Positions 24,232 through 25,534 of a stretch of DNA of 64,000 nucleotides are shown here, piece by piece. The stretch's first letter is position 1. Every line of letters starts with the position of its first letter. Source of the stretch: Marinomonas rhizomae (lineage in GTDB: Bacteria; Pseudomonadota; Gammaproteobacteria; Pseudomonadales; Marinomonadaceae); contig NZ_CP073343.1 of the NCBI RefSeq assembly GCF_024397855.1, positions 62,001-126,000 on the forward strand. Direction: 5' to 3'. The notes under the pieces were generated by a model that did not search any database, was not told the origin of the DNA, and saw only the letters and a program-made list of their open reading frames with translations. The position numbers were made by a program, and so were the translations under genes.

Positions 24232-25356
24232 TTAGTTTGCTAAGTAGTTATGTCCTTGATTTAGCGATAAATAAATTTCATTTCTCAGTTCGTTAGCGAG
24301 ACGAGTTGGTACGCTTTTGGTTGGATGACGCAAACTAATGCGTAACAGTAAATTGACGTGTGAAGGCGTCATTCCTAGCCTTTCTACCGCTGATTTTGGT
24401 AACTGTTGGTATTGTGTTCGAGATAAAAGTTTAAGCTCTTCTAGCCAATGGGCTTGTTCTCCTAAGGCGATACGAACTTGATCGCCGATAATGTCCATAT
24501 CGCAATTTTGGTCCACCACAATCGAAATATCTCGCTCGGCTTTGGGTTGTCGCGAGACGGGCCTCCAAGGGGATAAATCGAGCATTTGTTGCTCAATCCG
24601 TGGATCTGGATCTCGAAGCAATCGAATGTCGGGAATGCCTTTGCGCAGCATCAGTATTCTATCCAATCCTAACCCAATGGCGACGCCTGTATAGTCATTG
24701 CCTGGCCAACCATTTCTGGTTAATAAGTCTGGATCTATATTGCCGCACTCGCCTACTTCAATAAGACCTTGATCTTCCACAGCGTCTAGCTGAATGCCAT
24801 TCATGGTGTAAGGGTGCGGCGATTTGGATTGTTGTACGACATGATTCGGTAACAAGGTTTTCATCAGCGCTGAAATGGATTCTTTCAATATCTGATTGTC
24901 TTCTGCTTGATGTTTTGGCAATACAATCCAGATGTCCAGTTGATGAGGTTCTGCGCAATGCCAGCGATCAATGCAGTCGCGACGATAAACCAATCCGTGA
25001 CTGATTATCCCTATAGACTCCGGTCGCAGACTTTGCCAACTCTTTAACCAGGTTGGCACAGTACTGGATGTTTGCGTGCGTAGCATTAAGCTATTTGAAA
25101 TATAGCGGCTGTAGCGAGCGTCTCTTGATGCACCATCGGTCGGATAACCGAGGGCGTCGTAGTTTTCGTAGACCGGCACGATAGGATTGGCATTTACACG
25201 TTGTAAGTAACAAGGCCAAAGTGATGAAACTGCGGTTTCAGCTTCGCTAATGAGTTGCTGCATGGCATGTATGCCGTGACAAGGGTTGCTCAGGTCGCGT
25301 AGAGACAGTGCGTGAAGTAATTGCTCGTGGGTTAGATAGTTGTTGTGTGTAGACAT
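24232..25356 (-). CDS. single-chain phenylalanyl-tRNA synthetase-like protein
   Basis: A 374-residue class II synthetase fold resembling PheS fused to the FDX-ACB tRNA-binding domain of PheT, the architecture of mitochondrial PheRS. Seen: LMLRTQTSS (as PheS RLLRTQTS), motif 2 VYRRD, HQLD where PheS has HQME, IEVGECGNIDP, and motif 3 GLGLDRILMLRKGIPDIRLL. FDX-ACB begins at ERDISIVVD (about residue 280). The PheS FPFTEPS segment, whose two phenylalanines cradle the substrate ring, reads HPYTMNG here. The alanine of GFAFG is kept (GVAIG). No N-terminal coiled coil. Start at 25356 follows GGAG by seven bases. Catalytic residues look preserved but substrate choice probably differs; not the housekeeping enzyme, which has two subunits. 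Confidence 0.82.
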   Translation of the reverse strand: MSTHNNYLTHEQLLHALSLRDLSNPCHGIHAMQQLISEAETAVSSLWPCYLQRVNANPIVPVYENYDALGYPTDGASRDARYSRYISNSLMLRTQTSSTVPTWLKSWQSLRPESIGIISHGLVYRRDCIDRWHCAEPHQLDIWIVLPKHQAEDNQILKESISALMKTLLPNHVVQQSKSPHPYTMNGIQLDAVEDQGLIEVGECGNIDPDLLTRNGWPGNDYTGVAIGLGLDRILMLRKGIPDIRLLRDPDPRIEQQMLDLSPWRPVSRQPKAERDISIVVDQNCDMDIIGDQVRIALGEQAHWLEELKLLSRTQYQQLPKSAVERLGMTPSHVNLLLRISLRHPTKSVPTRLANELRNEIYLSLNQGHNYLAN

Positions 25357-25408
25357 AATAAAGCTCCATAAATCCAAGATAAAAAATTCAATGCAATCTT
25401 TTGGATTC

Positions 25409-25428
25409 CTCCGAGTCAGGACTCGGAG
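25409..25428 (-). promoter_or_regulatory. leader hairpin (segments 2 and 3) of PheRS-like gene
   Basis: CTCCGAGTC and GACTCGGAG form a 9-bp perfect stem 53 bp before the start codon. Segment 3 can alternatively pair with an identical upstream copy of segment 2 at 25486-25495, giving mutually exclusive folds. No immediate T-run follows; a run of six T lies about 20 bases further on. Confidence 0.6.
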
Positions 25429-25447
25429 AGAGCTTGTCTTTGAAAGG

Positions 25448-25534
25448 TTATTTCAGAAAGAGCAAAGCCGCCGCGTCCAGTTTAGGGACTCGGAGGCTGA
25501 TAAATCGATGTGATCGTGCAATAAGATACGTCAT
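25448..25534 (-). CDS. possible 28-codon leader peptide
   Basis: An ATG at 25534 opens a 28-residue frame (MTYLIARSHR..., ending AAALLFLK) that stops at 25448, before the hairpin at 25409-25428. Codons for LRVP fall exactly on the upstream repeat GGACTCGGAG. There is no Shine-Dalgarno, but a predicted promoter would start transcription at or next to the ATG, so leaderless translation is conceivable. It is not rich in Phe codons (two). Treat as a candidate only. Confidence 0.35.
   Translation of the reverse strand: MTYLIARSHRFISLRVPKLDAAALLFLK

Follow-up and report, generated by a model that had tools for sequence, protein, structure and literature searches.

Streptomyces coelicolor harbors an auxiliary tryptophanyl-tRNA synthetase (TrpRS) that is controlled by attenuation, has a leader with Trp codons and is resistant to indolmycin. 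Self-immunity is the role given to another synthetase, the leucyl enzyme (LeuRS) AgnB2, in an excerpt of PMC5059758. The gammaproteobacterial pheST genes are preceded by a classical attenuator, described in the excerpted part of PMC1262725 as a leader ORF with a Phe codon and alternative hairpins. In peptide biosynthesis, the structure 6zsv is CgnB of the crocagin pathway, as stated in an excerpt of PMC10070186, and the excerpted part of PMC12636437 concerns other peptide enzymes. The literature search, which covered open-licence papers, returned neither a description of the SrmL family nor an earlier self-immunity enzyme of the phenylalanyl-tRNA synthetase (PheRS) class.

Here we analyze a stretch of 64,000 nucleotides from Marinomonas rhizomae (contig NZ_CP073343.1, positions 62,001 to 126,000), further called the window, which encodes a PheRS-like protein of this family (Table 1). 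We propose a function for what NCBI calls a "mystery ligase", and the proposal is open to testing.

Results

The reading frame of srmL lies on the minus strand, from the ATG at 25356 to the stop ending at 24232; the initial annotation had given the correct coordinates, and the plus strand over the same positions is packed with stops. By its sequence the product is a member of the NCBIfam family NF051887, "PheS-related mystery ligase SrmL", as it scores 463.3 bits over positions 1-349 of the 349-position profile (curated cut-off 300). The class II core, PF01409, is found with 105.5 bits (cut-off 19.8), and the scores with the PheRS models lie below their cut-offs (pheS_mito 96.8 of 258 bits, pheS 86 of 237). 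The proposed layout of mitochondrial PheRS, a PheS-type core and an FDX-ACB domain in one chain, is borne out by a near full-length structural match to the mitochondrial enzyme (mtPheRS), with 342 residues aligned over model residues 1 to 370; about 210 core residues are aligned in the PylRS rows of the same comparison, and the rmsd to the tRNA-bound mtPheRS 3tup is 17.1. The FDX-ACB domain is weak by sequence in the window protein (17.5 bits, cut-off 31.1) and exceeds the cut-off in a huge-phage homologue, L233 (38.3 bits).

The host genome (4.37 Mb, one contig) contains a separate pheS match (357 bits, in an open frame of 331 aa) and a pheT-type FDX-ACB domain within an open frame of 797 aa, and srmL is therefore, as had been supposed, a second gene besides pheST. 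Since these matches lie elsewhere in the genome and the alignment sets HPYT on FPFT, neither an absence of pheST nor a misplaced FPF segment speaks against the initial annotation. Rfam and tRNA scans of the 64-kb window gave no match. An operon of srmL with the downstream AGCS transporter gene was considered and rejected: a terminator-like hairpin lies between the two genes, and the transporter is not 3' of srmL in loci L038 and L039.

Table 1. Positions of srmL and of its upstream elements in the window
Feature	Coordinates	Strand	Remark
srmL, 374-aa single-chain PheRS-like protein	24232..25356	minus	stop included
srmL ribosome-binding site GGAG	25364..25367	minus	predicted paired, unpaired probability 0.04
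Hairpin 3:4 (CTCCGAGTCCTGACTCGGAG)	25409..25428	minus	without T-run in the window
Partner stretch AAGCTC of the ribosome-site pairing	25430-25435		read from predicted fold
Leader ORF MTYLIARSHRFISLRVPKLDAAALLFLK	25448..25534	minus	stop included; equivalent in 19 window-type loci read
Hairpin 1:2	25466..25498	minus	begins within leader ORF, directly past control codons
CGA-TTT (Arg-Phe), candidate control codons	25502..25507	minus	in 19/19 window-type leaders

When the protein was aligned to E. coli PheS and human mtPheRS, the pocket replacements FPFT to HPYT and HQME/HQLE to HQLD proved to have been placed correctly, and a third change emerged, GCG to ECG. The altered pocket is conserved among homologues: the phenyl-binding FPF segment is replaced by HxY in all 60 sequences of a set that comprises a 61-member cluster less L096 (L085, L086 and L095 lie outside that cluster). 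His188, Tyr190, Asp148, Glu210, RRD and the motif-3 Arg (P0001 numbering) are invariant in this set and also hold across 16 diverse members including one phage protein. The catalytic motifs are likewise kept, as was claimed, with RRD and GLGLDR/GMGLDR in 60/60 sequences. The invariance of His, Tyr, Asp and Glu in the pocket could point to a synthetase whose substrate is another amino acid or a modified Phe and whose tRNA is tRNA-Phe or a different one, and the joint loss of HxY and ECG in L085 of Pseudomonas, which reads CGF at the former segment, fits such an enzyme as well. However, the leaders described below contain Phe codons, and the window protein and all 16 aligned rows have Ala at the position of E. 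coli PheS A294, which we take to gate para-substituents; we consider a substrate other than Phe unlikely. As a separate observation, L085 and its near copy L086 (6007-7143) form a divergent Pseudomonas branch of SrmL, yet dN/dS between them is 0.08.

The SrmL family is rare. Scores above the cut-off were obtained in 1 of the 398 genomes of a phylum sample and in 10 of the 390 of an order sample, the window's own genome being included in each, as well as in 29 of 298 Pseudomonas-group genomes. The GTDB contig scan yielded 63 loci, namely six from Marinomonas, one from a Paucimonas MAG, one distant locus from Chitinophagaceae (L096) and the rest from Pseudomonas; its patterns were taken from the window protein only, so distant members are missed. 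A full srmL copy is present in 4 of the 35 genomes of the window's genus. Another Marinomonas genome, G009, holds a broken srmL remnant (L186:6413-6777) whose neighbours resemble those of the window. Plasmid-borne srmL occurs in Azotobacter chroococcum and Glutamicibacter nicotianae, and a plasmid of Corynebacterium diphtheriae has a fragment of the gene flanked by erm(X) and tet(65). The Glutamicibacter copy (L189:9004-10122) adjoins a chloramphenicol efflux gene and has its own CGA-TTT leader. The position of srmL beside resistance genes on plasmids may reflect hitchhiking.

Upstream of srmL a leader ORF and two hairpins were recognized (Table 1). Equivalent leaders were read in 16 window-type loci, with the fragment L190 and the remnant L186 left out, and in three more. 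The six bases CGATTT are invariant in the 13-leader alignment A3 and lie outside the predicted stems; since the bacterial leaders keep CGA just as strictly as TTT, the amino acid sensed could be Arg. In 16/16 folded leaders hairpin 1:2 begins within the ORF, 6-11 bases after the first base of CGATTT, and its outer stem varies among loci in paired fashion (AGCC/GGCT, GACC/GGTC, CACC/GGTG). The second hairpin, which was chosen by script and set by hand for L205 in nascent-RNA folding, is followed by a T-run in L180, L188, L200, L201, L203 and L204, where it resembles an intrinsic terminator. In L189 and the window group this T-run is absent, and in the window group the hairpin is part of a predicted fold in which the ribosome site of srmL is paired.

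A pattern written from these leaders matched upstream of srmL in 14/14 srmL genomes among 16 searched, as expected from its origin. Away from srmL it matched four times in the 16 genomes, each time within a longer open frame; its reversed control gave two matches, and no match was found in the two Marinomonas genomes without intact srmL. Apart from the four matches inside longer frames, the pattern is confined to srmL, and therefore the element goes with srmL alone. The window genome's own pheS, examined as a positive control, has no evident Phe leader.

Predicted equilibrium folds mostly remained unchanged when strand 1 was blocked. In nascent-RNA folding strand 2 shifts to strand 3 in 14/16 leaders, and pairing with a shuffled strand 3 is almost as extensive (mean 6.9 vs 5.5 pairs). 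The 2:3 duplexes differ weakly between own and cross-locus combinations (-13.7 vs -13.1 kcal/mol), the own one being better in 12/16. The anatomy of the leader appears to be that of ribosome-mediated attenuation, and folding does not prove the switch itself. Judging from their upstream regions, Pseudomonas-type srmL genes are without the leader, an in-frame CGATTT being found in only 1 of 53 loci. About 105-145 bases upstream of Pseudomonas-type srmL a TCTGTAG...TTCTGAAA-like element recurs, and its pattern was matched in 11/53 loci.

Six homologues come from huge phages, each over the SrmL cut-off and each with HxYT, EPHQ and ECG. One is an uncultured phage record of 634,780 bases (L209), and five are IMG/VR contigs of 181-578 kb (L230-L234); the latter were matched in a scan of IMG/VR with alignment A4, and a scan with the L209 protein gave no match. 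Right before srmL, L209 has a leader, MNTNTTFNFFFSHKMV (4 Phe of 16 residues), and a terminator. The leader of L233, MNMLNKNNFSFFMFDFFGTQARGAILLKE (6 Phe of 29), precedes a terminator-like hairpin with six T, which was read from the fold and was not flagged by the automatic search. The stretch around srmL includes 17 tRNAs in L230, where tRNA-Phe(GAA) is the first tRNA to be met in either direction from the gene, and 24 tRNAs in L234, where going upstream from srmL a tRNA-Val comes first and tRNA-Phe second. In L232, where 17 tRNAs were counted in the stretch, srmL is preceded by a HisRS-like fragment (150 bits, cut-off 287), a SerRS over its cut-off (440 bits vs 302) and a TrpRS-like gene under its cut-off (129 bits vs 177). 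Thus, five of the six phage copies have a Phe leader or tRNA-Phe or synthetase neighbours; L231 has neither a leader nor tRNA or synthetase genes nearby.

A divergent neighbour of srmL (or its remnant) from one protein family, further called the partner, is present in 35 of the 55 loci L040-L094, in 29 labelled full (L063 in two pieces) and in 6 partial; absent or cut partners mean less in L079, L050 and L054, which are near contig ends. None adjoins srmL in the 6 Marinomonas loci. Partner members have no convincing Pfam match, and besides the partner no neighbour found by clustering is common to more than 13 loci. The partner profile matches the PDB entries 6zsv (8e-23) and 6zsu (CgnE, 4.6e-12), and the Glu, His and Asp positions, presumably with a metal role, are invariant. 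The interval between srmL and the partner contains, on the strand of the latter, a small ORF whose length is about 29 to 50 aa depending on the start and which ends with NFGWAPLAWAxxx or a variant in 31/35 loci (29 and two diverged); the pattern in Pseudomonas and Paucimonas is F[GST]W[APS]PL[AVS]W. In L093 (4657-5604, with the small ORF upstream), L090, L068 and others the two genes look like a minimal crocagin-like pair. In L181 (5487-6587) and L182 (5593-6714) a CgnB-like gene is accompanied by the related peptides FGYYPLTKW and FGFYPLTKW, and the two genomes concerned have no SrmL match.

Among the 298 Pseudomonas-group genomes the partner was found in 23, SrmL in 29 and both in 14, which leaves 15 SrmL genomes without a partner match and 9 partner genomes without SrmL; partners above 400 bits occur in 12 genomes, all with SrmL. 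The absence of an adjacent partner changes 10 times on a 60-row SrmL tree, and 7 times when only well-supported branches are counted; L070 (stop inside), L087, L088, L095 and the loci from L151 on were left out of this tree. SrmL without partner is under purifying selection, with dN/dS of 0.06-0.17 in 9 pairs, and the two pairs in which one or both loci have a partner give 0.07 and 0.08. The retention of srmL after loss of the partner and peptide would be the pattern expected of a self-immunity gene, which is not proof of one. The same retention, together with the altered pocket, would also suit a catalytically idle SrmL that serves as decoy or sensor by binding an inhibitor or uncharged tRNA-Phe; with the motif-2 and motif-3 residues intact in every one of the 60 sequences and with purifying selection, this seems very improbable to us.

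The precursor-like peptide and the CgnB-like gene that stand divergent from srmL in Pseudomonas and Paucimonas, with the profile matches to CgnB and CgnE, could instead suggest that SrmL is a peptide-tailoring ligase, which would adenylate an amino acid and join it to the conserved peptide. Yet the partner profile has no match in 14/14 window-type genomes searched, and in the window genome no CgnB or CgnE homologue was found at E up to 1. Additionally, about half of the Pseudomonas-group srmL genomes (15/29) do without the partner, partner-peptide loci exist in genomes that lack an SrmL match, and phage srmL copies sit among tRNAs and synthetases. We regard a role in peptide tailoring as quite unlikely.

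Discussion

An auxiliary PheRS is the best reading of SrmL because of the Phe codons in the leaders, the tRNA-Phe and synthetase neighbours and the fold of mtPheRS. The same three features favour Phe and tRNA-Phe over the suggestion of the initial annotation that the amino acid is a different one or the acceptor something other than tRNA. We therefore consider it rather probable that SrmL is an attenuator-controlled single-chain PheRS working in parallel to PheST; the use of Phe, the charging of tRNA, the sense in which the switch works and resistance are what we infer. The single chain would activate Phe with ATP and load tRNA-Phe alongside PheST. The leader of the srmL mRNA would be translated, and at a shortage of Phe-tRNA the ribosome would stall at CGA-TTT and mask strand 1; strand 2, now free, would pair with strand 3 and thereby keep the terminator or the ribosome-site lock from forming. 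SrmL would then be made when the ordinary PheRS fails, and srmL is probably switched on upon failure of Phe loading onto tRNA. By means of its altered pocket the enzyme could remain active when, for instance, a PheRS-directed inhibitor blocks PheST, and we infer that it is possibly resistant to a PheRS-directed peptide. With lower confidence, such resistance would account for both the altered pocket and the spread of the gene.

Several points count against the PheRS reading. The His and Glu in the near-invariant HxY/HQxD/ECG pocket are not obviously suited to Phe. The window protein misses both PheRS model cut-offs, and L085/L086 are conserved although L085 lost HxY and ECG. The folding results, the invariance of CGA and the lack of an evident Phe leader at the window genome's own pheS weigh on the same side. 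Finally, the leader is absent from Pseudomonas-type genes and no context signs accompany srmL in phage L231.

The Pseudomonas loci allow a wider, tentative picture which we hold possible and rather doubtful, with SrmL as a self-immunity enzyme of the PheRS class: a minimal crocagin-like pathway, consisting of the F-G-W-A-P-L-A-W-A precursor and the CgnB-like metalloprotein, would make a PheRS inhibitor, srmL would protect the Pseudomonas producer, and solitary attenuator-controlled copies, acting as a defence, would have reached Marinomonas, plasmids of actinobacteria and huge phages. Such a peptide would be a possible natural inhibitor of PheRS, an antibacterial target. The huge-phage and peptide-gene-pair relatives suggest a role for the unexplained SrmL family, single-chain PheRS are suggested to exist beyond mitochondria, and the conserved leader would predict when the SrmL enzyme is made.

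The window protein belongs to the same family as the model NF051887, whose name gives no function. Human FARS2, the mitochondrial PheRS (3cmq, 5mgv), shares 24% identity with it, and its FPF, GCG and HQLE segments are replaced in SrmL. The LeuRS-type self-immunity synthetases represented by AgnB2 in the excerpt of PMC5059758 are likewise second synthetase copies, and Pseudomonas-type srmL stands beside possible inhibitor genes; however, SrmL is a different synthetase, and no inhibitor is known for it. The Pseudomonas partner is homologous to crocagin CgnB/CgnE (PMC10070186, excerpt), whereas the window genome is without the partner. The auxiliary TrpRS of S. coelicolor is likewise a spare synthetase, and SrmL is possibly induced via its leader peptide, but that enzyme is a class I TrpRS with a Trp-codon leader, unlike SrmL. 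As in the pheST attenuator, to the extent that the excerpt of PMC1262725 describes it, a leader ORF and hairpins lie upstream of a PheRS-type gene, and the srmL leader is distinguished by its invariant codons, CGA-TTT.
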